Of a DNA stretch of 64,000 nt, positions 13,816 to 26,885 are shown piece by piece. Each line of letters opens with the position of its first letter. The first letter of the stretch is position 1. This DNA is from Neptunicoccus cionae (GTDB lineage: Bacteria > Pseudomonadota > Alphaproteobacteria > Rhodobacterales > Rhodobacteraceae), in assembly GCF_002860325.1 (NCBI RefSeq), contig NZ_PKOJ01000006.1, forward strand, positions 186,001 through 250,000, in the 5' to 3' direction. The notes under the pieces are model-generated. The model had not been told where the DNA came from. It was given only the letters and a program-made list of their open reading frames with translations, and made no database searches. The translations under genes were made by a program, and so were the position numbers.

Positions 13816-15240
13816 TTACCCCTGTTCTCTGGCGCCTTTGTAGGCAGACAACGCGCGGTCCCGTCCTTCTTTCAAGGAGATCATTCGCTCCGGTCTGGGG
13901 GTGTCAGCCGTGATGTTCCAAGACCGTGGGATTGCGTTGTAAAAGTCCTTCGCTGGGCTGCGGCCCAGTTCATCCTCCCCCCCGTTTAGGTAGAGATCAC
14001 GATAGTTCTGATTGCCGTCAAATTTCTCGCCTTGGGTTTCGGGATTGAACACCCGAAAGAACGGAGAGGCATCCGGCCCGCTGCCTGCCACCCACTGCCA
14101 GCCCATCGCATTCGATGCGGGATCCCAGTCGATCAGGGTTTCTTCGAACCACGCCTGCCCCACACGCCAGTCTGTCAGCAGGTGTTTGGTCAGATAGGAC
14201 CCCGCGATCATGCGCAGGCGGTTGTGCATTGTGCCGGTGGCGTAAAGCTCGCGCATGGCGGCATCCACCATCGGTTCGCCTGTCATGCCACGGCGCCATT
14301 TTTCGGCATCATCATTGTCACCGCGCCAGTTGAAATCGTCCCATTCCTCGCGCCAGTTGCGGGTCAGCATGCGCGGCGTGTGATAGGCCAGATGATAGGC
14401 AAACTCGCGCCAGACCACTTCCTTCAGGAAATGCTCGGCTCCGGCTGCCCCCCGCTCCAGCGCCTGCTGTCCGCCGTGCCACAACCGGCGCGGCGCAATT
14501 TCCCCGTAAGTGAGGTTTTCCGACAGGCCGGACGTCACTTTGCGGTCGGGATAATCCCGCCCCTCCTTGTAGTCCTCTACCGGACCATCCAGAAAATCAG
14601 CCAGACGTTGCATGGCTGCATCCTCTCCGACACAGGCGTAGGCCCGCACCACATCCGCGCCGCGGTTCATGGCGGCCCCCATCCGCCAGTCTGCAAGATC
14701 TTCACTGCGGGGCCAGCTATCCGGCGCTGCGATTTCTTCGGGGGCTGGCAGGCAGGCGGCCACAGGCTCGTCTCGCACGGCACGCCAGAACGGACTGTAA
14801 ACCTTGTAATAGCCGCCTGCTTTGGTTTCGACCTGCCAAGGCTCGAACAGCAGATGACCGGCGCAACTCTCCGCCGTGATCCCCTGATCTTTCAGGGCGG
14901 ATTTCACTGCGGTGTCCCGCGCAATCGCATCCGGATCATAGGCGCGGGACCAGACCACCGCCGTGGCGCCGGTTTCTTCGATCAGCTCTTGCAGCACCTC
15001 CAGCGCATCGCCGCGACGCAGGATCAGGCGGCTGCCTGCTCCTTCCAGCGTTTTGCCGAATGACTCCAGACCGAGGCCCAGCCGCCATTTCGGCGCTGCG
15101 CCAAGGCTGGATACGCTGTCATCATGGATAAACACAGGGATGACCGGCCCGCCCGATGCAATCGCATGGGCCAGCGCGGGGTTGTCGGCCAGGCGCAGAT
15201 CGCGCCGGACCCACCAAAGAACAGGAGCAGGTTTCGTCAT
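13816..15240 (-). CDS. phrB: Deoxyribodipyrimidine photolyase
   Basis: A 474-residue flavoprotein that repairs UV-induced cyclobutane pyrimidine dimers with light energy. The N-terminal antenna domain starts WWVRRDLRLADNPAL; the C-terminal FAD-binding domain carries the expected signature (NRLRMIAGSYLTKHLL and later WDPASNAMGWQWVAGSG). Length and motif order are typical of class I CPD photolyases. It lies 34 bases downstream of the class V aminotransferase gene and 73 bases upstream of cfa. Linkage with cfa and trg genes suggests a light and oxidative-stress unit suited to surface water. Confidence 0.95.
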   Translation of the reverse strand: MTKPAPVLWWVRRDLRLADNPALAHAIASGGPVIPVFIHDDSVSSLGAAPKWRLGLGLESFGKTLEGAGSRLILRRGDALEVLQELIEETGATAVVWSRAYDPDAIARDTAVKSALKDQGITAESCAGHLLFEPWQVETKAGGYYKVYSPFWRAVRDEPVAACLPAPEEIAAPDSWPRSEDLADWRMGAAMNRGADVVRAYACVGEDAAMQRLADFLDGPVEDYKEGRDYPDRKVTSGLSENLTYGEIAPRRLWHGGQQALERGAAGAEHFLKEVVWREFAYHLAYHTPRMLTRNWREEWDDFNWRGDNDDAEKWRRGMTGEPMVDAAMRELYATGTMHNRLRMIAGSYLTKHLLTDWRVGQAWFEETLIDWDPASNAMGWQWVAGSGPDASPFFRVFNPETQGEKFDGNQNYRDLYLNGGEDELGRSPAKDFYNAIPRSWNITADTPRPERMISLKEGRDRALSAYKGAREQG

Positions 15241-15274
15241 AGTCTGAACTATACGCCAATCCCTGCCCTGCGGA

Positions 15275-16498
15275 TCACAAAACCTGTTCTAAAGCCTCGA
15301 TTAATTTGTCCACTTCGCCCTTGGAAGTGTAATGGACAAAACTGACGCGCAAGACGCCGTGATCGGGATCAATTCCCAGACCTTTCAGACAACGCACGCC
15401 GTAAAAATCCCCGCCGCCTGCGTTTACCCCCAATGGGGCGAGCTCGGTTGCCAGTTGCAGCCCCGGCTTTTGTGAAAGCACGGCCACGGTGGGAGCCTTG
15501 GCCGACGCCTTGCGCGGACCGATCAGACGTACCGAATTCTTGTCGCCCAGATAGTCCAACAGCGGTTGCAGCAGTTCGGTTTCATAAGAGCGCATCAAAT
15601 CATGCACCGCTTCGCCCCGCGTCGCGGCACGGGCATCCACCCCGCCGTGATGGGTGTACACCGCGTCGATATAGTCCGCGATACCGGCACAGGCCGCGAC
15701 CTGTGCGTGGTCAGGCCCTGCGGGCGTAAAGCGTTTGTAAAGTGTATCTGCGTTAAAGTAATGGGCCTGATTGGGCAGCTCCATGCCCAACCCTTCGCGC
15801 ATCACCATAATCCCCTGATGCGGACCGTAGGTTTTATAACTGGAGAACAGGTAAACATCCGGCCCGAGCGCACCTACATTGGGCAACCCGTGGGGCGCAT
15901 AGCTGACCCCGTCCACGCATGTATAAACCCCCGCATCCCGCGCAATGGCGCAGATTTCGCGCACGGGATTGATCTCACCGACCACGTTTGAACAATGGGG
16001 GAAGCACAGCAGCTTGACCTTGTCATCCAGAAGCGCGCCGAGATCGTCCAGCGACAAAGAACCGGTTTCACTGTCTAGGTACCATTCCCGCACCTCAATG
16101 CCGCGATCCGCCAGACGCCGCCACGGACCGGTATTGGCCTCGTGGTCCTGATTGGTCACAATGATCGCATCGCCTTCATTCAGCCACTGCCCGAACGCCT
16201 GCGCCAGCACATAGGTGTTTTGCGTTGTGGAAGGCCCAAAGGAAAGTTCGTGCGTGGCCACCCCAAGGATACCTGCTAGGCGTTTCCGGGCCTCGTCCAT
16301 CTCGGCACCGCCAAGTTCGGATGCCTCGAACGGACCATAGGGCTGGACCTTGCGCTCTGTGTAAAAACGGGTCAGCCGGTCGATGACCTGTTTACAGGTG
16401 TAAGACCCGCCTGCGTTTTCAAAGAATGCCTGTCCTTGCAGGGCTTGCGCCGAAAACGCCGGAAACTGGCTGCGGATAAATTCATTGTCCAAGGTCAT
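15275..16498 (-). CDS. Aminotransferase class V, cysteine desulfurase-like
   Basis: A 407-residue PLP enzyme of fold type I. The Schiff-base lysine is K222 in SSYKTYGPHQG, the Asp contacting the pyridine is D196 (CVDGVS) and the conserved His is H119 (NQDHEAN). The overall pattern is that of the cysteine desulfurase-like (SufS/CsdA-related) subfamily. The short active-site loop with a conserved reactive Cys typical of IscS is not evident, so desulfurase activity is uncertain; the substrate may be another amino acid. I chose ATG 16498 because it has GGGAG upstream and matches the family start. It heads the photolyase-to-channel gene run. Confidence 0.8.
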   Translation of the reverse strand: MTLDNEFIRSQFPAFSAQALQGQAFFENAGGSYTCKQVIDRLTRFYTERKVQPYGPFEASELGGAEMDEARKRLAGILGVATHELSFGPSTTQNTYVLAQAFGQWLNEGDAIIVTNQDHEANTGPWRRLADRGIEVREWYLDSETGSLSLDDLGALLDDKVKLLCFPHCSNVVGEINPVREICAIARDAGVYTCVDGVSYAPHGLPNVGALGPDVYLFSSYKTYGPHQGIMVMREGLGMELPNQAHYFNADTLYKRFTPAGPDHAQVAACAGIADYIDAVYTHHGGVDARAATRGEAVHDLMRSYETELLQPLLDYLGDKNSVRLIGPRKASAKAPTVAVLSQKPGLQLATELAPLGVNAGGGDFYGVRCLKGLGIDPDHGVLRVSFVHYTSKGEVDKLIEALEQVL

Positions 16499-16642
16499 CG
16501 TCTTGCTCCCAAATTTCTTTGGCATAGCAGTGCAGTAGTCCTCCTGAAGGGTCAAGCCGCATCCGCCCCAAAGCTGGTGCCGCTTTTTGTCAGCAGCCCC
16601 TGATTACGTTGAAACCTGCAATCAAACACAGGAGAAGTTGCC

Positions 16643-17026: not shown

Positions 17027-17056
17027 AAAGGCCCCGCCATTGCTTGCGGGGCCTTT
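17027..17056. terminator. Bidirectional terminator
   Basis: An 11-bp perfect stem (AAAGGCCCCGC with GCGGGGCCTTT) and an 8-base loop lie between the convergent VOC gene and acuI. The A/T-rich ends suit termination in both directions. Confidence 0.85.
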
Positions 17057-17087: not shown

Positions 17088-18077
17088 TCAGGCGTTTACG
17101 TCCACCAGAACGCGGCCCTTTACCTGACCCTTCAGGATGTCCGCACCCAATTGGGGCAGATCGGACAGGGTTGCTGGCTGGATCATCGCTTCAAGCTTGT
17201 CCATCGGCAGGTCTTTGGCCACCCGTTCCCATGCACGCAGGCGGTTGTCATAGGGCTGCATTACACTGTCGATGCCCAGCAGATTGACGCCGCGCAGCAA
17301 GAAAGGGATCACAGTGGCAGGCAGTTTCGCACCGCCAGCCAGACCAACAGCCGCAACAGAGGCGCCGTATTTCATCTGACCCAGCACACGGGCCAGCATC
17401 TCGCCGCCAACCGCGTCAACACAACCGGACCATGTTTCCCCTTCAAGCGGACGTTTGGTGGTCTCGTTCAACTCGCCCCGCGGAACGATTTGCGTAGCAC
17501 CAAGGGATTTCAGGTAGTCTTCGGTTTCAGGCCGCCCCGTCACGGCAGCAACCTCATAGCCGAGATTGGCGAGGATCGCCGTTGCAACAGAGCCCACACC
17601 ACCGGCAGCGCCCGTTACCAGCACCGGACCGTTGCCCGGCTTCAGACCGTGATCTTCCAGCGCCATAACAGACAGCATCGCCGTGAAGCCTGCGGTGCCG
17701 ACCGCCATCGCCTGTTTTGCGTCCAGACCCTGTGGCAATGGCACCAGCCAGTCCGCCTTGACGCGGGCTTTTTGAGAATAGCCGCCCCAATGGGCCTCAC
17801 CCACGCGCCAGCCGGTCAGAACAACCTTGTCGCCGGCCTTGTAGCGCGGATCATCCGAGGATTCCACGGTACCGGCGAAGTCAATGCCCGGCACATGGGG
17901 GTAATTGCGCACAAGCCCACCGCCCGGCCCGATGCACAATCCGTCCTTGTAGTTCACAGTGGAATATTCCACCGCAACGGTAACTTCACCTTCGGGCAGA
18001 CGGTCTTCGCCAATCTGCTGTACAGAGGCAGAGGTTTTACCCTCGTCGTCTTTTTCCACGATCAGTGCGTTAAACAT
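17088..18077 (-). CDS. acuI: Acrylyl-CoA reductase (NADPH), AcuI type
   Basis: A 329-residue medium-chain dehydrogenase/reductase of the YhdH/AcuI group that reduces acryloyl-CoA to propionyl-CoA, a step of DMSP breakdown and acrylate detoxification. The NADPH-binding glycine motif GAAGGVGS is at 156-163, with VNYKDGL (41-47) and the family stretch HVPGIDFAGTVE (61-72). No zinc ligands are present, as expected. It starts 13 bases after dmdA. In Ruegeria pomeroyi acuI also follows dmdA. Its product, propionyl-CoA, feeds the carboxylase encoded by pccB in this same window. The ATG 18077 has GGAGAG upstream. Confidence 0.92.
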   Translation of the reverse strand: MFNALIVEKDDEGKTSASVQQIGEDRLPEGEVTVAVEYSTVNYKDGLCIGPGGGLVRNYPHVPGIDFAGTVESSDDPRYKAGDKVVLTGWRVGEAHWGGYSQKARVKADWLVPLPQGLDAKQAMAVGTAGFTAMLSVMALEDHGLKPGNGPVLVTGAAGGVGSVATAILANLGYEVAAVTGRPETEDYLKSLGATQIVPRGELNETTKRPLEGETWSGCVDAVGGEMLARVLGQMKYGASVAAVGLAGGAKLPATVIPFLLRGVNLLGIDSVMQPYDNRLRAWERVAKDLPMDKLEAMIQPATLSDLPQLGADILKGQVKGRVLVDVNA

Positions 18078-18090
18078 ATTATTCTCTCCT

Positions 18091-19194
18091 CTAATTCCAG
18101 AAACTTTCCAGAACGGTTGCATCACGCATCCCGTCCGGTGTCTGAACGCGCAGCGCAGTGCCCGCGTCCCAATGGGTCATGCGCACCATTGCGATGGCCA
18201 CGTTCGTATCAAAATCGGGCGACCATGCCGCAGAGGACACCCGCCCGACCCTTTTCTCTCCGGCCAGCAGCGGCCACCAGCGGTCACACCCCGGCACCGC
18301 AGCGCCCTCAATCGCTACGGGGCGGATCTGTTGCACAGGCCCCTCTTTGGCCACGCGCAGCAGCGCATCACGACCAATACAGCCGATGGCATCATGGGTA
18401 TCGCAGAAACGCCCCAACCCGCATTCATGGGGGGTGTTGTCATCCGTCATGTCATTGCCATAGGACAGCAGACCGCTCTCGATCCGCTCTATCAGATTGG
18501 GGCATCCGGCGTGCACGTCCAGATCGCGCCCCGCCTCCATCAGCGCATTCCAGAGAGGCATACCGATGTCACTACCTTCGACGTAAATTTCATAGCCGCC
18601 CTGTTTGGAATATCCCGACCGCGCCACGACCAGCTTGCGACCCTGAAATTCGAACAAGCCATAACGGAAGAAGCGCACATCCTTGACGCTGTCCCCGAAC
18701 ACCCGCGCCATCAACTCGTCGGATTTCGGCCCCTGAATCGCCAGTGGCGATACATCCGGCTCGTCCACGAGCACGTCAAGCCGCCAGCCGTTGGCAATGC
18801 CTTTAACCCAATACAAAAGATCGCTGTCGGCGATGGAGATCCACCAGCGGTCCTCGGCCAGTTTCACCGCCACCGGATCATTCAGCATGCCGCCGGTTTC
18901 ATCCACGATCGGCACATAAAAACACTGGCCTTCTTTCATGGTGCGCAGGTCGCGGGGCGTCAGCATCTGCATCAGGCGCGCCGCATCCGGCCCGCGCAGT
19001 TCCACCTGCCGTTCACAAGCAACATCCCAGACTTGAACCGCGGATTTCAAGTGGTGGTAATCCTCTGTGACCGAGCGGAACACCGTAGGCAACAACATGT
19101 GGTTGTAGATCGTATAGGCTTTGACGCCGGCAGCTTCGACACCTTCGGAAAACGGTGTACGGCGCAGGCGACGGGATTGGGACAACAGGGCCAT
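18091..19194 (-). CDS. dmdA: Dimethylsulfoniopropionate demethylase
   Basis: A tetrahydrofolate-dependent enzyme (367 aa) that removes a methyl group from DMSP, giving methylmercaptopropionate. It is a GcvT-fold protein. Where true GcvT (also in this window) has FDVSHMG, this one has VWDVACERQV (55-64), diagnostic of DmdA. The stretches RRTPFSEGVEAAGVKAYT, SYGNDM and WSPDFDTNVAIAMV also match R. pomeroyi DmdA from memory. The ATG overlaps the stop of the upstream DinB gene (TGATG), so translation is probably coupled. It is the fourth gene of the operon that ends with acuI. Confidence 0.95.
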   Translation of the reverse strand: MALLSQSRRLRRTPFSEGVEAAGVKAYTIYNHMLLPTVFRSVTEDYHHLKSAVQVWDVACERQVELRGPDAARLMQMLTPRDLRTMKEGQCFYVPIVDETGGMLNDPVAVKLAEDRWWISIADSDLLYWVKGIANGWRLDVLVDEPDVSPLAIQGPKSDELMARVFGDSVKDVRFFRYGLFEFQGRKLVVARSGYSKQGGYEIYVEGSDIGMPLWNALMEAGRDLDVHAGCPNLIERIESGLLSYGNDMTDDNTPHECGLGRFCDTHDAIGCIGRDALLRVAKEGPVQQIRPVAIEGAAVPGCDRWWPLLAGEKRVGRVSSAAWSPDFDTNVAIAMVRMTHWDAGTALRVQTPDGMRDATVLESFWN

Positions 19195-19700
19195 CAGACA
19201 GACTCCATAAAGACCAGATCCGTATCGGCAGTTTTCACACCGGCTTGGGTCAGCATGGCATGAACCTGACCCCGATGGTGGGTCTGGTGGTTGAACACAT
19301 GGGTATAGATTAGGGATTTGGGTTGCGAGATATCCGATTGTTTCAAACCGGAGAACCACGTGATGTCGCCGGACAAATCGCTGTCAGACAGGCCCTCAGC
19401 CCAATCCACAATACGCTGGTCCGTCAGATTGCGCTGCTCGCAAAAGCTGTCCCACTCCTTGTGGAACTCGGTGCTTTGCGCACCCGGCACAGTGGGGGCC
19501 GCCCCGCCGTCAAAGCGGGACATCCAGAGCATGTCTGCCCAGAGAATATGACACAGCGTGGCGCTGATAGATCCGAAGAACGCACCGCGTTCCTGCTGCC
19601 GTACGGCATCCGTCAAACCGGCAGCGGCCGGGATCATCCAACCGTTCTGCCATTTGTTATAGCGCGCCATCATGCGCAGCCAGTCCGCTGACCCTGTCAT
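19194..19700 (-). CDS. DinB family protein upstream of dmdA
   Basis: A 168-residue four-helix-bundle protein of the DinB/YfiT superfamily. The metal ligands are recognisable: a His in the second helix (SATLCHILWADMLWMSRF) and the C-terminal cluster FNHQTHHRGQVH. Some members are thiol-dependent S-transferases (bacillithiol, mycothiol) and many are unassigned. Its stop codon overlaps the dmdA start by one base, which ties it closely to DMSP demethylation. A role in handling methylated sulfur compounds is attractive but purely inferred. Confidence 0.88.
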   Translation of the reverse strand: MTGSADWLRMMARYNKWQNGWMIPAAAGLTDAVRQQERGAFFGSISATLCHILWADMLWMSRFDGGAAPTVPGAQSTEFHKEWDSFCEQRNLTDQRIVDWAEGLSDSDLSGDITWFSGLKQSDISQPKSLIYTHVFNHQTHHRGQVHAMLTQAGVKTADTDLVFMESV

Positions 19701-19746
19701 ATCGCTCTCCCGTGCAGGCTTGTCGTTAATAAAGCCCGGTTACAGC

Positions 19747-20418
19747 TTACGGGCCGGACCATTCGATCGGGCAGATTTCAGCGGATTTGCCGCCAAAGTC
19801 CCACGCCCGACCGTGATCTCGCACGCGCGAGCGCAGGCCCACTGCAGCGATGATGTCCGGTCCCATCCAGTATTTGGAGTTCTTGATCACAACGCCCTCA
19901 TCAGGGTTGGCCCCGCCGAGCTGTTCGATCTCGCCGTTGATCTTCTTGCCAATGTTGATCCGGCGACGACGGCCATCGGTTTCAATTTCAACCTTGGTGC
20001 GTTCGGCATGGATTATGGTGCTGACAAGCATGGTGAACAGGCCGGTTGTGCCCCCCGCAGTGCCAGAGAAAATCTTCAGCAAACCTTCATAGGCTTTGTC
20101 TGTGGCGCGGTCGTCCACATAGGCAGCGACCTTCCAGTCGCCTTCCGCCATACGGCCCGGAATATCTGCCAGCAGACCCACGTTCAGCCCGCCGATGTCT
20201 TCGCCCTCAAAGTGGCCTTCATCGATGCGAATGGCCATCCACGCATGGCAGTAGCCTTCGGTCGGCTTGTATTTGCCAAGCGAGACAACACAGGGGCAGA
20301 ATACATCGCAAGAGCAGTTCAGAAACAGCTCTCCTTTGATTTTCCAGTCTGTCGGAACCCGCGTGCGCCGTGTGGGCGGAGCAGGTTGTTCCGCGGCAGT
20401 CGTTGTTTCAGTCGCCAT
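19747..20418 (-). CDS. DUF1326 family protein
   Basis: A 223-residue soluble protein of the DUF1326 family. It carries the characteristic Cys motif CSCDVFCPC (35-43) shortly after the start of the domain, preceded by a Thr/Pro-rich N-terminal tail. The spacing of the three or four cysteines suggests metal or redox chemistry. It starts 14 bases after the DUF2182 stop; the pairing of DUF1326 with DUF2182 is seen in other genomes, so they probably act together. The ATG 20418 has GGGAGG upstream. No biochemical function is known to me. Confidence 0.88.
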   Translation of the reverse strand: MATETTTAAEQPAPPTRRTRVPTDWKIKGELFLNCSCDVFCPCVVSLGKYKPTEGYCHAWMAIRIDEGHFEGEDIGGLNVGLLADIPGRMAEGDWKVAAYVDDRATDKAYEGLLKIFSGTAGGTTGLFTMLVSTIIHAERTKVEIETDGRRRRINIGKKINGEIEQLGGANPDEGVVIKNSKYWMGPDIIAAVGLRSRVRDHGRAWDFGGKSAEICPIEWSGP

Positions 20419-20432
20419 TGTCTGGCCTCCCT

Positions 20433-21206
20433 TTAGTAAAATCCGGCAGCACGACCGGCCAGCGCCAGCCCTGCTACAATCAACAATGCACCGGCAGGGC
20501 GCATCACGTAATGCGCAACCTGCGGTAATTTCTCCAGAACCATCAGAAGGGTCGCAAGCCCCATCCACAACAGGTTCATCGCGCCCCCCGCAAAACCAAG
20601 AGCCATATACCCCCAGCAGCACACCACGCAGTACGCCCCGAGCCCCAGCCCCATGCGCAAGCCGCCTACCCCGCCCGGACGCCAGTTGCCCAGAAAATAC
20701 TGCATCGGTGCGTGGCAGACGCCGTGGCAAACTTCTTTCAGCCATGTGAACTGGAACCAGCCAACTACGACAAGCAATGCAGAAGTCGCCCAGAGCATGG
20801 TGGACTGGCCGAACATATCAAGCCATCCCAACCGCATCAGCCCCGCCTGCAACAAGGCAATACCAAGCGCAAAAGCCACCCAAACAACGAAGTAACCGGT
20901 GATAACACCAAGCCATCCGGCCCAGCTGCCGTTGGCGGATTTTATAAGAGCTTCGTATGTGGTTAACGTGTGAACAAAGGTCGGCCCCATCATGGCCACC
21001 ATCATCACCGCCCACATCGGGACCAGCGCACGCAAGCTGTTCATCGGCGGCATTCCCGCCATATCCATCATCCCCACACGTGCGCCGTACCAGTTCAGCC
21101 CCATTTGCATCGCCATGGAATACATCATCCACCAGGCCAGCAGAATCGCCGCAAAGAATGACAGCCAGAGCGCGGAGCGGATCAGATGATGGGGAAGATT
21201 AAGCAC
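20433..21206 (-). CDS. DUF2182 family predicted metal-binding membrane protein
   Basis: An integral membrane protein of about 257 residues with six or so hydrophobic segments. It is very rich in Met in the first loops (GMMDMAGMPPMN, WAVMMVAMMGP) and has Cys/His in WLKEVCHGVCHAPMQYF and VVCCWGY, which fits its annotation as a predicted metal-binding protein. The start is uncertain: GTG 21206 with AGG upstream gives a compact N-terminus (LNLPHHLIRSALWL); a longer frame up to 21299 would cover the operator. It is the first gene of the operon leading to dmdA. Copper or similar metal handling is suggested by composition only. Confidence 0.82.
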   Translation of the reverse strand: MLNLPHHLIRSALWLSFFAAILLAWWMMYSMAMQMGLNWYGARVGMMDMAGMPPMNSLRALVPMWAVMMVAMMGPTFVHTLTTYEALIKSANGSWAGWLGVITGYFVVWVAFALGIALLQAGLMRLGWLDMFGQSTMLWATSALLVVVGWFQFTWLKEVCHGVCHAPMQYFLGNWRPGGVGGLRMGLGLGAYCVVCCWGYMALGFAGGAMNLLWMGLATLLMVLEKLPQVAHYVMRPAGALLIVAGLALAGRAAGFY

Positions 21207-21286
21207 ATCACACCTGTTGTCGGGATTTGGCCGTCCCACGCTTGTGCAACCGCCGTATTCGGGTACATTGGGTCTACGGGAAAACC

Positions 21287-21332
21287 AAATGTCTGACAAT
21301 TAATTTTTACAAATGTCTGACAATTAATTTTT
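21287..21332. promoter_or_regulatory. Two tandem GntR/FadR-type operators
   Basis: A 22-bp sequence occurs twice without mismatch at 21287-21308 and 21311-21332 (period 24). Each copy contains the 9-bp palindrome TGTCTGACA (21290-21298 and 21314-21322), close to the TNGTNNNACNA consensus of FadR-subfamily GntR regulators. The sites lie between the divergent GntR gene and DUF2182. This supports autoregulation plus control of the dmdA operon. Confidence 0.8.
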
Positions 21333-21364
21333 CCGGAAGGATCACAGCGGATAGCAGGTAGAAT

Positions 21365-22096
21365 ATGAAGTACGAACTGGATCAGGCACAGGAACTTTCT
21401 GCGCAGATTGCACAGGCCATTCGGGATGGCATAATGGAAGGCAGGCTGATCGTAGACCAGCGCCTGCCCTCGGAAAGTGACCTGTGCGAACAGTTTCAGG
21501 TCTCGCGCCCGACAGTGCGTGAAGCCCTGAAACGGCTGGCCGCACAGAACCTGATCCGAACACAGCGCGGCGCATCCGGCGGGGCCTTTGTGAACCGGCT
21601 CAGCTTTGAGGATGCCTACGGGCAGCAGATAACGACCTCTACCCTGCTGTTATCCATGAACGCAGTCAGCTTCGAAACGGCTTGCGAAGCCCGTTTTGCG
21701 CTGGAACGGGCCTGTGTTGCGCTCGCCGCCCAGCGCCGGACACCGGACCAGCTGGCCGCCATGCGGGCCGAGATTCACCGCCAGTCCCAGCCCGGCCTCA
21801 GTGACGAGAGTTTTTGCGCCTCTGATGTAGCGTTCCACCGCGCGCTTGTGGATGCGGCGGGCAATCCGGTGATGTCCTATCAACTTGCAGGCGCGGTCGA
21901 AGCAATTGAACCACTGATGAACATGATCACTTTCACAGCCCGAAAGCGCGAGAAAATTGTCGAACTCCACACTCTGATCGCCGATGCGCTGGAGGCGCGT
22001 GACGCTGCCACAACCGAAGCCGTTCTCGGGCAGTTGGCAGAACATACGCTTGAACTGGCCCGTGAAGTGGCGCGGATGCGCAGTAAGAGCGCGTAA
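21365..22096 (+). CDS. GntR-family regulator, FadR/FCD subfamily
   Basis: A 243-residue repressor-type regulator. Residues about 8-75 are the winged helix-turn-helix (RLPSESDLCEQFQVSRPTVR). Residues about 100-230 form the all-helical FCD ligand domain, with likely metal-binding residues in DVAFHRALVDAAGN and late His residues (LHTLIADAL, AEHTLEL). It is divergent from the DUF2182-DUF1326-DinB-dmdA-acuI operon and has two perfect TGTCTGACA operators in the shared promoter, which makes it the probable local regulator. A GntR gene also adjoins dmdA in R. pomeroyi, as I recall. The ligand (DMSP, acrylate or an acyl-CoA) is unknown. Confidence 0.9.
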   Translation: MKYELDQAQELSAQIAQAIRDGIMEGRLIVDQRLPSESDLCEQFQVSRPTVREALKRLAAQNLIRTQRGASGGAFVNRLSFEDAYGQQITTSTLLLSMNAVSFETACEARFALERACVALAAQRRTPDQLAAMRAEIHRQSQPGLSDESFCASDVAFHRALVDAAGNPVMSYQLAGAVEAIEPLMNMITFTARKREKIVELHTLIADALEARDAATTEAVLGQLAEHTLELAREVARMRSKSA

Positions 22097-22193: not shown

Positions 22194-25100
22194 TCAAAGG
22201 ATAAAGTCTCCGCTGTTCAATCCGGAGAAACCGGCGAGAACGAACTTCATATCCGCCACCCCATCCGCGTCCGCATCGATCTGGACAATAGTATCTCCGC
22301 CGACCTTCAGAAAATTCACCTCTTTCGCGGTTCCGGTAAAACCGGATTTTCCCAAGAAGGCAAAACTGCCATCCAGACCGGAGAGGTCAATCAAATCGCG
22401 GCCGGTTCCGAAATCGGTAATCTTGTCCAGCTTGGAATTTGTCGTGTCGGTTGTACTGTTAAAGGCAAACACATCGGCGCCTTTCCCACCCACCATCACA
22501 TCGCGGCCTTGCCCGCCTGTCAGGATGTCATTGCCGGTACCTCCGTGCAGCTTGTCATCCCCTTTCCCGCCGGCCAGCATGTCGGCACCGCCCTTCCCTG
22601 CAAGCACGTCGCGACCTTTGTCTCCCCGCAGCAGGTCCGAACCTTTGGCGCCGACCATGTCATCCCGGCCACCCCCGCCCCGCAGCAGATCGTTACCGTT
22701 GCCGCCGTTCAAACTGTCATCTCCTCCATTCCCGAGGAGCGCATCCTTACCACCACGTCCCAGCAGAACATCCGGGCCACCTTTGCCAAAGATTTCATTC
22801 CCCCTGAAATCGCCGGTATAGCGATCGGCAAAGCGACTGCCGATGATATCGTCTATTCCGGTCAGCATATCCCCTTCCAGATACGTGCTGTCCGTGTCAC
22901 CGTTACGCATGTCATAGAACACCCCGGTCTCGAAAGCCGTGAAATCAAGCGTATCCTTGCGTCCTGCACTGCCATCATAGGACTGAACCCCTTCTGCGAG
23001 CCACAGGTCCAGAACGGCATTGCCGGTGCCTCCGATTACTTTCTCTATATCTTCAAACACGCCGCGCACCTCTGCGCCGAGCGTGTTTTGCAGCCTGATC
23101 TGGAAGGCGCCGGATTCCGGATCGTCCAGATCCGGCAGAACCCGTGTCAGATCGGCAGCTTCATTTGCAAAGGAGTGGCCGGTTTCCAGAATATCCTGCG
23201 GCGTCAGGGAGACCCCTTCATAAATCCGCGCCTCGCTGGTGCCGGTATCCTGCCACACCGGAACATCGGCACGTAGGACCGCTTGATAGGATTGTGTTGC
23301 AAAGGTCAGCCAGACCGTGCCGGAATTTGCCCCCAGTTCGAGACTGTCTTCACCGGCCCCACCATAAAGAATGTTGTTCCCCCCATCGAGACTGAAGATG
23401 TCGTCGCCGTTTCCGCCATAGGCGGTATCATTGCCAAGACCGACATTCAGGATGTCATCGCCGCCTGCTCCATAAAGCAGATCATCCCCTGCGCCGCCGT
23501 TTAGTCCGTTGCTTTCCGCCGAACCTGTAATCGTGTCGCCGAGATTGGTGCCAGTCACGTTTTCAATCTCAAAAAGCCGGTCTGTGCCATGGGCGCCGGT
23601 GACAGTCCCATCTGCCAGATTGGCGACGATTGCACCGAAGTTGGCAGCCATGACAGCACCGGATTCAGTGTCAGGTACGGCCGTATCATAAGAGGCCGTA
23701 TCCCGCCCTGTCCCGCCATAGAGCGTATCATTTCCACCGCCGCCGTGCAGCAGGTCCTCTCCCGCGCCCCCGTAAAGAAGGTCCTGACCCGCGCCACCGA
23801 ACAATTCGTCGTTCCCACCACGCCCGTCGAGAAGGTCCGCCCCGTTCAGCCCGACAAAGCGTTCTGAACCTTCGGTCCCAAAGAACCTGTCGCTACGGCT
23901 GGCGTAGTCGTTGCCGATCAGTTCCTCGAATCCGGATACAGTGGCTGTGATTTCATTGCTGCCGCCTTCTGCCGAAACTGTTCCGGCCTCCAGATCGACA
24001 TTCACGGTCCGCGGTGCTGTGGAATGACTGCTGAGATCGAATTGCAGACGGTCATATCCTGTGCCTCCCGCAAGTTCGCCGCGAAAGCGCTGAACCTGAA
24101 GCAGATCATCATCCGCGCCACCGTCGACCGTCATATCATTGCCGCTCCCGCCGGACCCGACAATCATGGTGTCCTTACCTGCGCCCCCGAACAGAAAGCC
24201 GAAATCCCGCAAGCGCATGTAGTCGTCACCAGTACCTCCATAGAGTTCACCGAAGGTTGACCCGTCAGTCGAAGGATCACGGATCAGGATATCATTCCCG
24301 CCACCGCCATAGATCGTCATCCGGTCGTCACCAAGTAATTGTACTTCATCAGCAAGATCCCCGAGATAAAGTCGTTCGATCCCGTCTAATGTGCCGCTAA
24401 ACAGTTGGGACGCGTAGGTTTCTGCCAAATCGTCCTCGACCCCCAACTCGCTGCTTTCCGAAGCATCAAAACCGCGGAAACTGGACCCGATGGCACCAAC
24501 TTTACGCAGATAAAACCGGACCTCATCCAACGTTCGGGTATCCAGCGTGTCATAACCACCGCCGCCGTCAAAATTGGTGCTGTTGTAAATGGCATCCGGC
24601 AAGGTCAGTTGAATCAGGTCATCCCCGTCGCCACCAGCGACCAGTGGCGCGCCGTTGGAGAACAAAACGTCGTCCCCCGCGCCGCCGTCGATCTGGACGC
24701 TCATATTATCCGGGTTGGAGGCTCCGTAAAGCGTGTCGGACTCTGACCCGCCGGTCACTTTTGATATATTCACAAATATATCGGTTGCCAGAACACTGCC
24801 ATCTTCGTCCAGACGTTCTACACGTCCTTCGCCCCCGTAAATCCGAAGGCTCCCGGTATCCGGCTGCGGATCGACCCGCTCGAACGAGCCGAACCGCAAG
24901 TCTTCCGGCGAATAGGTCAGCCAGTCGCTGCCCTCTCCTCCGTCGAAGAAATCGCCAAGCCCGTCTTCAGGCGTGCCACCCCCAACCAGTTGGTCAAAAT
25001 GGGCCCCTCCGAACAGGCTGTCCTGCCCCAGGCCGCCAACCAGAACGTCCTTGCCATCGCCGCCGAATATCTGGTCGTTGCCGTTTCGACCGTCAATGTA

Positions 25101-26885
25101 ATCGCCGCCATCGTTGCCAACCAACCGGTTGGCGCGTTCATCGCCGCGCAACCGGACCGCACGGGAATCCCGCATGATAATATTCTCAATCCCATCCAGC
25201 GCGTCATGGTCGCGACCGTCCCAAGCCGTCCCTTCGACCAGATCCACGACAACCGTGGAACTGCCATCGGGATCAACCGGAAACAGCCAGGTGTCGTTGC
25301 CAGCGCCGCCAAAGACCTCATCCGCCCCGCCGCTTGCAATAATGACGTCATCCCCGTCTCCGCCGTAGATTGTGTCTACAAAGTCAGACCCTGTGATGCG
25401 GTCGTCGCCCCCGAATCCGGAGATCGTTGTCGAGAATGTGCCCCCGTACAGGAAATCGTTCTTTTCAGTCCCCTCCAGCACAGCGCTTTCAGCAACTTTT
25501 ACGTTTTCAATCAATTCCTTGTAAGTGAAATGGTCGAACCCGAAGTAAAAATCCTCTACCCCGTAAACGGTTTCATATCCCTGAGTGAAATAAGCGTTCA
25601 CAGGATTTTGGTGGAAAAAGACGATGCCATCGCCGTCTTCCGTGCTGAAAAAGGAATACTCCGACAGACCACCGGAAAAGCGCAGGCTGTCCTTGTCTCC
25701 TGCGCCCCCATAAATTGTGTCGTTCCCCTGTGTTGCAAAAACGAGATCATTGCCCGCCCCCGCAGTTACGGTGTCATTGCCTGCGCGCGCGTTGATAACA
25801 TCGGAAAATTCGGTGCCTTGTAATTCATCCGCATTCTCGGTCCCGAGGATCAGGCGATCCGAGGGCTCATCCCCGAACTCGTCGAAAATCTTGCTAACAA
25901 AGTCATCAAGAAACCCGTCCAAATCGTAATCCCAGCCTTCCACAGCAAAAAGATCACCCAATTCGCCGAATTTTGCGAAGATCTCATCCAATTTTGCTTC
26001 CAGCCCGTTCAGGGCATCCACGTCTGGAAGGGCGGAAGAAATTTTGTCCGTCAGCTTGTCCAAAAGCTTGTTGATACCTGTTTTCTCCATGATCCAATCG
26101 AGCACCGGCTCCACCGTCACCCTGAAAACAAACCCAATCGCATCCAGCAGCGGCTCAATCGGTTTCAGCTTGGAATAGACAATCTCCAGCGGTTTCTTGA
26201 GAAAAGACAGGCTTTCGGCAACCGCCTGAAACTTGCCCGCAACAGTCACCAGAGCGTTCAGACCACCCACTTTGAAGGCATCGGTAAAGGCGTCCAGTTC
26301 ATCTTTCAGAGTGTCATAAGTTCCGTTCAGCGTTTCAAGCACATCGTTCAGCGGATCTGTGAAGACTTCAGCGGTATCTGAAAGCGGTTTTAACGTATCA
26401 TGTTCCGGTCCGTCGATTTCATCCACTGTATCGAATGTATCGACCATTTCTTCGGTGTAACTCTCCACCTCATAGACTTTAATTGCGACGTTGAGCATTT
26501 TCGCCTCAAGCGCAGAAAGCTTCTTTTCTGCATTCTTGAGTTTCTCGATGTACTTGCCTTCTTCTATCTTGATCCGAAGATCATGGGCTTTTTCTTCAAG
26601 CTTATCGGCAACCGACTTTACCTTTTCCAGAACAACCTTAGCGACCTTGGCGACAGACTTTAGCGGACCGGCATTGCTCATAATCTTGACAGTCAGCAAC
26701 ATGGCATCCACCTGCTTGCCAAAATCGTCAGCCTGTTTCTCAATTTTAGTTGCGTATTCAAGCGCTTGTCGTGCGAACTTCACATCCTGTCGGATCTCGC
26801 GAACCTCTGAGCGCGCTTCGATCACATTTCTTCGGGTCTCCCCCAGATTTTCGTCAAAAGCTTTTAACTCTGCGCCGGCTCCCAT
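22194..26885 (-). CDS. Large RTX protein with helical N-terminal domain, 1563 aa
   Basis: A probable type I secretion substrate. Residues about 1-340 are non-repetitive and largely helical, with Lys/Glu heptad-like stretches (EKVKSVADKLEEKAHD) that suggest coiled coils. From about 345 to 1460 there are many blocks of calcium-binding nonapeptides (GGxGxDxLxGG) separated by beta-rich linkers. The last 100 residues are the standard end module (ADVFAFNS, ITDFGTGRDLIDLSG) and finish GDFIL. There is no Sec signal. GGGAGA precedes the ATG. No protease, lipase or adhesin domain is recognised. It is transcribed alone. Adhesion, biofilm or surface-layer roles are typical guesses for such proteins; none is proven here. 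Confidence 0.88.
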   Translation of the reverse strand: MGAGAELKAFDENLGETRRNVIEARSEVREIRQDVKFARQALEYATKIEKQADDFGKQVDAMLLTVKIMSNAGPLKSVAKVAKVVLEKVKSVADKLEEKAHDLRIKIEEGKYIEKLKNAEKKLSALEAKMLNVAIKVYEVESYTEEMVDTFDTVDEIDGPEHDTLKPLSDTAEVFTDPLNDVLETLNGTYDTLKDELDAFTDAFKVGGLNALVTVAGKFQAVAESLSFLKKPLEIVYSKLKPIEPLLDAIGFVFRVTVEPVLDWIMEKTGINKLLDKLTDKISSALPDVDALNGLEAKLDEIFAKFGELGDLFAVEGWDYDLDGFLDDFVSKIFDEFGDEPSDRLILGTENADELQGTEFSDVINARAGNDTVTAGAGNDLVFATQGNDTIYGGAGDKDSLRFSGGLSEYSFFSTEDGDGIVFFHQNPVNAYFTQGYETVYGVEDFYFGFDHFTYKELIENVKVAESAVLEGTEKNDFLYGGTFSTTISGFGGDDRITGSDFVDTIYGGDGDDVIIASGGADEVFGGAGNDTWLFPVDPDGSSTVVVDLVEGTAWDGRDHDALDGIENIIMRDSRAVRLRGDERANRLVGNDGGDYIDGRNGNDQIFGGDGKDVLVGGLGQDSLFGGAHFDQLVGGGTPEDGLGDFFDGGEGSDWLTYSPEDLRFGSFERVDPQPDTGSLRIYGGEGRVERLDEDGSVLATDIFVNISKVTGGSESDTLYGASNPDNMSVQIDGGAGDDVLFSNGAPLVAGGDGDDLIQLTLPDAIYNSTNFDGGGGYDTLDTRTLDEVRFYLRKVGAIGSSFRGFDASESSELGVEDDLAETYASQLFSGTLDGIERLYLGDLADEVQLLGDDRMTIYGGGGNDILIRDPSTDGSTFGELYGGTGDDYMRLRDFGFLFGGAGKDTMIVGSGGSGNDMTVDGGADDDLLQVQRFRGELAGGTGYDRLQFDLSSHSTAPRTVNVDLEAGTVSAEGGSNEITATVSGFEELIGNDYASRSDRFFGTEGSERFVGLNGADLLDGRGGNDELFGGAGQDLLYGGAGEDLLHGGGGNDTLYGGTGRDTASYDTAVPDTESGAVMAANFGAIVANLADGTVTGAHGTDRLFEIENVTGTNLGDTITGSAESNGLNGGAGDDLLYGAGGDDILNVGLGNDTAYGGNGDDIFSLDGGNNILYGGAGEDSLELGANSGTVWLTFATQSYQAVLRADVPVWQDTGTSEARIYEGVSLTPQDILETGHSFANEAADLTRVLPDLDDPESGAFQIRLQNTLGAEVRGVFEDIEKVIGGTGNAVLDLWLAEGVQSYDGSAGRKDTLDFTAFETGVFYDMRNGDTDSTYLEGDMLTGIDDIIGSRFADRYTGDFRGNEIFGKGGPDVLLGRGGKDALLGNGGDDSLNGGNGNDLLRGGGGRDDMVGAKGSDLLRGDKGRDVLAGKGGADMLAGGKGDDKLHGGTGNDILTGGQGRDVMVGGKGADVFAFNSTTDTTNSKLDKITDFGTGRDLIDLSGLDGSFAFLGKSGFTGTAKEVNFLKVGGDTIVQIDADADGVADMKFVLAGFSGLNSGDFIL

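Follow-up and report, generated by a model that had tools for sequence, protein, structure and literature searches.

A predicted GntR-FCD switch with twin TGTCWGACA operators at a dmdA-acuI locus of Neptunicoccus cionae

Whether the abundant algal sulfur compound dimethylsulfoniopropionate (DMSP) is demethylated, which keeps its sulfur in the food web, or cleaved, which yields climate-active dimethyl sulfide, is a long-standing question, and the factors regulating this choice are described as not fully understood in the available part of PMC9769926. A named regulator of the demethylase gene dmdA was not found in the open literature searched, subscription journals and preprints lying outside that coverage. 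A stretch of 64,000 nucleotides from Neptunicoccus cionae (RefSeq assembly GCF_002860325.1, contig NZ_PKOJ01000006.1, positions 186,001 to 250,000; hereafter the window, whose own numbering is used throughout) carries dmdA and the acrylyl-coenzyme A (CoA) reductase gene acuI at the end of a five-gene run, divergent from a gene for a GntR-family regulator with an FCD ligand domain. Does this regulator control the run, and if so, in response to what? From sequence comparison, we consider it probable that the GntR-FCD protein is a dedicated, autoregulated repressor of the run that acts through two TGTCWGACA palindromes and leaves them in the presence of acrylate or acryloyl-CoA. Divergent GntR switches of this type are ordinary; this one is of interest as a candidate switch for DMSP breakdown that would close a gap in the regulation of this step of the marine sulfur cycle. 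The regulator gene and its predicted operators are located as follows.

21365-22096, plus strand: gntR, FadR-type GntR regulator with FCD ligand domain, 243 amino acids (aa), divergent from the run
21286-21308, no strand: repeat 1, 23 bp, identical to repeat 2
21310-21332, no strand: repeat 2, 23 bp, identical to repeat 1
21288-21300, no strand: predicted operator 1, AATGTCTGACAAT, inside repeat 21286-21308
21312-21324, no strand: predicted operator 2, AATGTCTGACAAT, inside repeat 21310-21332

The regulator belongs to the FadR-type (FCD) branch of the GntR family. Both its GntR domain (PF00392, residues 12-70, 67.5 bits) and its FCD domain (PF07729, residues 107-223, 75.1 bits) exceed the Pfam cut-offs, and the protein is similar in sequence to the NanR and PdhR structures. 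A predicted structural model (mean predicted local distance difference test score, pLDDT, of 74, weak at residues 68-99) has NanR, VanR, DhdR and FadR as its nearest neighbors in the PDB; the model appears to fit the GntR-FCD family and only confirms that assignment, being uninformative on ligand and domain arrangement. None of the best 25 of 30 NCBIfam matches reaches its cut-off, so the regulator is none of the named regulators among them. Orthologues at approximately 53% identity or more were recovered from 114 of 295 genomes of the same family (294 genera), the genome studied here included; these are referred to below as GntR genomes.

The repeats fall in the 157-bp intergenic stretch between gntR and the run, and each is centered on TGTCTGACA, which is palindromic about its central base. 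A first-pass annotation of this DNA had described two perfect 22-bp copies 24 bases apart; the copies are indeed perfect and spaced 24 bp start to start, and their length is corrected here to 23 bp. Shuffling the intergenic stretch 300 times with its dinucleotides preserved gave exact repeats of at most 10 bp, versus the actual 23 bp, which rules out a chance origin. FadR-type GntR proteins are expected to recognize an operator with a GT-N3-AC core. The same annotation had assigned a FadR-type palindrome to each copy, and this is borne out by the presence of TGTCTGACA in both, with a GT-N3-AC core that is conserved in relatives. WWTGTCWGACAWW has three occurrences in the 4.29-Mb genome as a whole, two of them in these repeats.

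Conservation was assessed in 120 loci around regulator matches from the 295 genomes (nine of them below 55% identity) together with the window, giving 121 loci and 1.171 Mb. With WWTGTCWGACAWW taken as the strict site and positions -400 to +60 of the gntR start as the near-gntR zone, 112 strict sites lie near the gntR start versus 2 elsewhere, and seven scrambled palindromes have no occurrence in the 121 loci. The site is inherited together with the regulator: its strict form is present in 93 of the 112 loci at 55% regulator identity or more and in none of the nine below 55%, while the TGTCWGACA core is found in 79 of 80 named loci. At least two sites are detected in 97 of the 121 loci by a weight matrix (background 0.10 per kb) that was trained on the same sites and is circular for the first site, less so for the usually imperfect second. 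Only 19 of the 121 loci have two exact cores, and the second site is therefore mostly the weaker one. The two sites are spaced by 15 bp in 67 pairs, by 33 in 11, by 14 in 7 and by 24 in 3. The 24-bp spacing is common to the window and its three closest named relatives, L167, L168 and L169 (regulator identity 99, 86 and 83%, respectively); because it is kept in L168 and L169 with inter-site sequence that differs from that of the window, the pair appears to have been maintained rather than freshly duplicated. It had been proposed earlier that the regulator governs the run through twin operators, and the part of this proposal that links regulator, twin operators and operon receives strong support from the comparison. 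Many relatives (L170-L246) have a GACTCA...CTTGC element, perhaps comprising promoter parts, between the sites and the run's first gene; no such element is apparent in the window or in its closest relatives.

The predicted target of the regulator is the run itself, which is followed by a probable terminator.

20433-21206, minus strand: DUF2182/PpoB2-type membrane protein (Pfam: copper chaperone), PF09948 169.7 bits, promoter-proximal gene of the run
19747-20418, minus strand: DUF1326 protein, PF07040 168.7 bits
19194-19700, minus strand: DinB-family protein, PF05163 81.9 bits
18091-19194, minus strand: dmdA, DMSP demethylase, NF009133 equivalog 698 bits (cut-off 410)
17088-18077, minus strand: acuI, acrylyl-CoA reductase, NF051456 equivalog 441.9 bits (cut-off 440)
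17027-17056, no strand: probable terminator hairpin 3' of acuI, 11 pairs, -22.3 kcal/mol, folding z-score -4.0

DmdA passes the DMSP demethylase equivalog NF009133 while GcvT models stay below their cut-offs, and it matches the PDB entry 3tfh at 379 bits. For AcuI the NF051456 pass is narrow; the wider YhdH/AcuI model TIGR02823 scores 463.5 against a cut-off of 297, and the PDB entry 5gxf, an AcuI, is matched at 623 bits. The GTG start codon of DUF2182 was chosen by the analyst. In transcription order (DUF2182-DUF1326-DinB-dmdA-acuI) the gaps measure 14, 46, -1 and 13 bases, the same as those first reported for a tight five-gene run ending in dmdA-acuI. Inside the run, terminator-like and promoter-like matches occur at about the shuffled rate, and the hairpin at 17027-17056 is not among the calls of a consensus terminator scan. 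A single transcript would extend from DUF2182 to acuI. DUF1326 carries a FLNCSCDVFCPC motif, and a search of the open literature for the words DUF1326 and DUF2182 returned no paper with either.

To which gene the regulator is most closely tied can be read from its neighbors in 105 of the 121 loci (at least 53% regulator identity and more than 4.5 kb available upstream). AcuI is encoded in 97 of these, DUF1326 in 86, DUF2182 in 85, DmdA in 84 and DinB in 53, and the exact order DUF2182-DUF1326-DinB-DmdA-AcuI is kept in 44. The same order is found in 43 of the 72 named loci that have sufficient sequence, one of them from Roseovarius nubinhibens. In eight loci (L077, L081, L108, L115, L118, L131, L144 and L145) acuI directly faces gntR and dmdA is missing. 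Twenty-four GntR genomes have no DmdA above the cut-off; a locus is available for 23 of them, 19 of which show acuI divergent from gntR, and three of the four loci lacking acuI have less than 1.3 kb of upstream sequence. Given AcuI in 97 of 105 loci and acuI in 19 of 23 DmdA-less ones, acuI is, as judged from gene content, the constant partner of gntR and dmdA a common addition. Co-occurrence speaks for the link as well: among the 295 genomes, 90 encode both GntR and DmdA, 24 GntR only, 35 DmdA only and 146 neither, and AATGTCWGACAWW occurs genome-wide in 88 of the 114 GntR genomes versus 50 of the 181 others.

Rearranged loci serve as natural experiments. Where an insertion of approximately 3 kb separates gntR from DUF2182 (L072), DUF2182 has a strict site immediately in front of it and gntR has a weak one. 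In genome G001, dmdA stands alone on another contig with AATGTCTGACATT approximately 50 bp upstream, and the regulator (49% identity) is encoded elsewhere with DUF1326 and acuI. In G096 (77% complete), what looks by eye like a gntR remnant lies beside the site and a DinB-dmdA-acuI run. These two belong to nine genomes examined out of the 35 that have DmdA and no GntR orthologue; G001 and G096 were picked for having the site, and the other seven, chosen blind to it, have no strict site at their dmdA loci (0/7; L274-L280). At two dmdA loci without the GntR regulator, L275 and L279, a periplasmic-binding-protein-like gene is seen by eye beside the run.

We propose that the GntR-FCD protein binds the two TGTCWGACA palindromes in the promoter region common to gntR and the run, and that the bound regulator would keep down both its own gene and the five genes. 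As acrylate or, more likely, acryloyl-CoA builds up, the regulator would let go, and AcuI, as acryloyl-CoA reductase, would then be made together with DmdA, which diverts DMSP away from acrylate formation. Since FadR-type regulators can also activate, the sign of regulation is only inferred. Acrylate or acryloyl-CoA is favored as the signal over DMSP or its demethylation product methylmercaptopropionate (MMPA) because acuI, not dmdA, is the most constant partner of gntR, and also because genes added to the locus share an acyl-CoA theme. A further reason is that dmdA and acuI of Ruegeria pomeroyi were induced approximately 10-14 fold by acrylate or DMSP and not by MMPA, according to the accessible part of PMC3338564. 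If true, the proposal would explain how acrylate, a product of cleavage, raises expression of the demethylase, and it predicts new regulon members; with a regulator gene and a 13-bp probable operator in hand, the question becomes directly testable in culturable strains.

Several observations weigh against this proposal. A promoter scan of 21150-21450 gave no sigma-70-like match and nothing above shuffles, which bears on the expected overlap of site and promoter. In G053 the regulator is present and a separate dmdA (L273) has no site, and three of the loci in which acuI faces gntR (L118, L144 and L145) carry weaker sites only, with no strict one. Of the 114 GntR genomes, 26 are without AATGTCWGACAWW, and both sets of co-occurrence counts given above ignore shared ancestry. 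As to a source of acrylate, a search of the genome of the window for the cupin-type DMSP lyase family PF16867, with DddP and DddD outside its scope, gave no match. Lastly, R. pomeroyi lies outside the 80 named loci, and its published induction is carried over to this locus by relationship only.

The same regulator and operators might instead respond to DMSP or to a demethylation product (MMPA or MMPA-CoA) and act as a substrate sensor for dmdA. This we regard as unlikely: DmdA is encoded in most of the loci (84/105), the solitary dmdA of G001 retains a site, and off-locus sites precede dmdD (L248) and mtoX (L259, L298), which act after demethylation, yet 24 of the 114 GntR genomes show no DmdA above the cut-off, with acuI divergent in 19 of their 23 loci, and the R. 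pomeroyi data, as far as PMC3338564 could be consulted, include no induction of dmdA-acuI by MMPA. It is very unlikely that the regulator serves mainly the DUF2182-DUF1326 pair in copper handling, with dmdA and acuI as passengers. Although DUF2182 is promoter-proximal, the pair is encoded in 85-86 of the 105 loci and Pfam names PF09948 a copper chaperone, the pair does not come between gntR and acuI in the eight loci where these directly face each other, it sits on the other side of gntR in L144 and L145, and none of the examined off-locus sites precedes it. Given the loci with acuI directly facing gntR, a copper-only regulator was judged unlikely.

Two further explanations concern the sites themselves. 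The repeats could be a neutral, recent tandem duplication of which one site or none is used, as the identity of the 23-mers, spacer included, and the scarcity of loci with two exact cores (19/121) would allow; however, relatives frequently have a pair of sites whose flanks have diverged (97/121 at the looser score), and L168 and L169 combine the 24-bp spacing with different inter-site sequence, making this highly improbable. The least probable explanation of all, to which we give a very small chance, is that some other transcription factor uses these sites, the GntR gene being a mere neighbor. It draws on the fact that regulator and site are paired here by sequence, but the site tracks gntR across many genomes, the seven site-blind dmdA loci lacking a GntR orthologue also lack a strict site, and the palindrome has the GT-N3-AC core of FadR-type GntR proteins.

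How far might the repressor proposed here reach beyond its own locus? Among the matches listed, 29 off-locus sites in GntR genomes were classified by eye and after the fact; 10 were judged intergenic, and for 2 more the call was ambiguous, L257 preceding a glucose/sorbosone dehydrogenase gene and L299 an MscS-like channel gene. Since ATGTCWGACA also encodes Met-Ser-Asp at gene starts, many genome-wide matches are coincidental, with several such cases in both genome groups. Seven of the 10 intergenic sites face DMSP or acyl-CoA genes: dmdD in L248 (PDB 4izb, 407 bits), mtoX/SBP56 in L259 and L298, a PRK08162-type acyl-CoA ligase in L288, L290 and L300, and crotonyl-CoA carboxylase/reductase in L291. 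The others precede another GntR-FCD gene (L284), a periplasmic binding protein gene (L266) and a flavin mononucleotide/flavin adenine dinucleotide oxidoreductase gene (L297). On the other side of the ligase sites stands a sulfotransferase-like gene in L288 and an EamA transporter gene in L290 and, as judged by eye, L300. The ligase sites are argued to be real because full-length members of the same ligase family are encoded no more than 8 kb from gntR in seven loci (L110, L124, L132, L135, L136, L137 and L139); of the five that were placed, four lie between DUF1326 and dmdA and one adjoins gntR, at 48-57% identity to the off-locus ligases. Identification of the ligase as DmdB was rejected, with 306-316 bits against a cut-off of 822 for the methylthiopropionyl-CoA ligase model; it passes PRK08162 instead. 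A 390-aa acyl-CoA dehydrogenase in five loci passed no cut-off among 21 matches, the nearest model being acryloyl-CoA reductase (232 versus 640). L111 has a strict site with a weaker neighbor at approximately 6.1 kb upstream from gntR, before a gene whose start resembles, by eye, that of a GMC oxidoreductase.

Directed checks of mtoX and dmdD, undertaken because G126, G277 and G187 had already shown sites, found upstream sites at 4 of 27 mtoX loci from GntR genomes (60 of 114 searched), two strict and two weaker, and at none of 9 from non-GntR genomes (64 of 181 searched); for dmdD, 1 of 10 loci had a site, the one that prompted the check. Both strict mtoX sites are among the prompting cases, and with these removed the counts are 2 of 25 for mtoX, both weaker, and 0 of 9 for dmdD. 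Left out were a partial mtoX (L328), 42-46% homologues (including L329 and L330) and a second copy in G224 among GntR genomes, 42-45% mtoX homologues in non-GntR genomes (L340-L348), and 42-47% dmdD homologues (L359-L370). Because sites are rare in these checks, the wider regulon is patchy at best. For the genome of the window itself it is unsupported: the sole third strict site (L158) immediately follows one gene and precedes, by approximately 160 bases, another with no apparent relation to DMSP, and the dmdD orthologue (70% identity) has a single TGTCNGACA at its locus, inside the dmdD reading frame. This genome has the DUF2182-DUF1326 pair and no SBP56/MtoX match, and maturation of the copper enzyme MtoX is thereby unsupported as a general role of the pair. 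In other genomes gntR is followed closely, in the same orientation, by mtoX/SBP56 (G043, L314; G240, L309), or mtoX/SBP56 lies approximately 1.8 kb from gntR (G003, L327) or directly after dmdA (G066).

A broader reading, advanced tentatively and to our mind with somewhat less than an even chance, gives this GntR protein a larger role: throughout the Roseobacter group it would be the master repressor so far missing for DMSP demethylation and for the detoxification of acryloyl-CoA. Demethylation would thereby be coupled to the toxic product of cleavage, and a module for copper handling would form part of the circuit. Its regulon would be scattered by genome, containing acuI nearly always, dmdA and DUF2182-DUF1326 usually, and mtoX, dmdD, the PRK08162-type ligase and crotonyl-CoA reductase in some genomes.

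Flanking the locus, the region downstream of the run (13816-16555, minus strand) holds a photolyase-like gene, recognized by eye, and a cysteine-desulfurase-like gene, a close relative of which lies near the dmdA run in L272 (translations compared by eye). Convergent with gntR, positions 22194-26885 (minus strand) encode a 1563-aa protein that by eye is rich in GGxGxD-type (RTX-like) repeats.

GntR-FCD repressors of the FadR/PdhR/NanR type have the same domain pair and GT-N3-AC palindrome as seen here. In R. pomeroyi DSS-3, too, dmdA is followed by acuI, and acrylate and DMSP induce both; the part of PMC3338564 available names no regulator or operator and does not contain the word GntR. The promoter in that organism was contained in a 350-bp fragment whose end falls within dmdA, so that the three upstream genes do not come between promoter and dmdA, as far as the same portion of PMC3338564 goes. 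In the partial text of PMC5739008, the R. pomeroyi mtoX operon, a downstream DMSP step, is induced by methanethiol, DMSP and MMPA and has an IclR-family gene upstream, whereas the mtoX sites described above are TGTCWGACA-like and occur in 4 of 27 GntR-genome loci. The closest parallel in logic is AcuR of Rhodobacter sphaeroides, for which the available part of PMC3017554 describes, as is proposed for this locus, a repressor gene adjoining acuI, with the product acrylate rather than DMSP as inducer and an operator that overlaps the promoter. AcuR is a TetR-family protein with the operator TAATAGAC-n6-GTCTATTA and controls a lyase (PMC3017554, same part), while the regulator described here is a GntR-FCD protein with TGTCWGACA as its probable operator and the demethylase gene dmdA as its predicted target.

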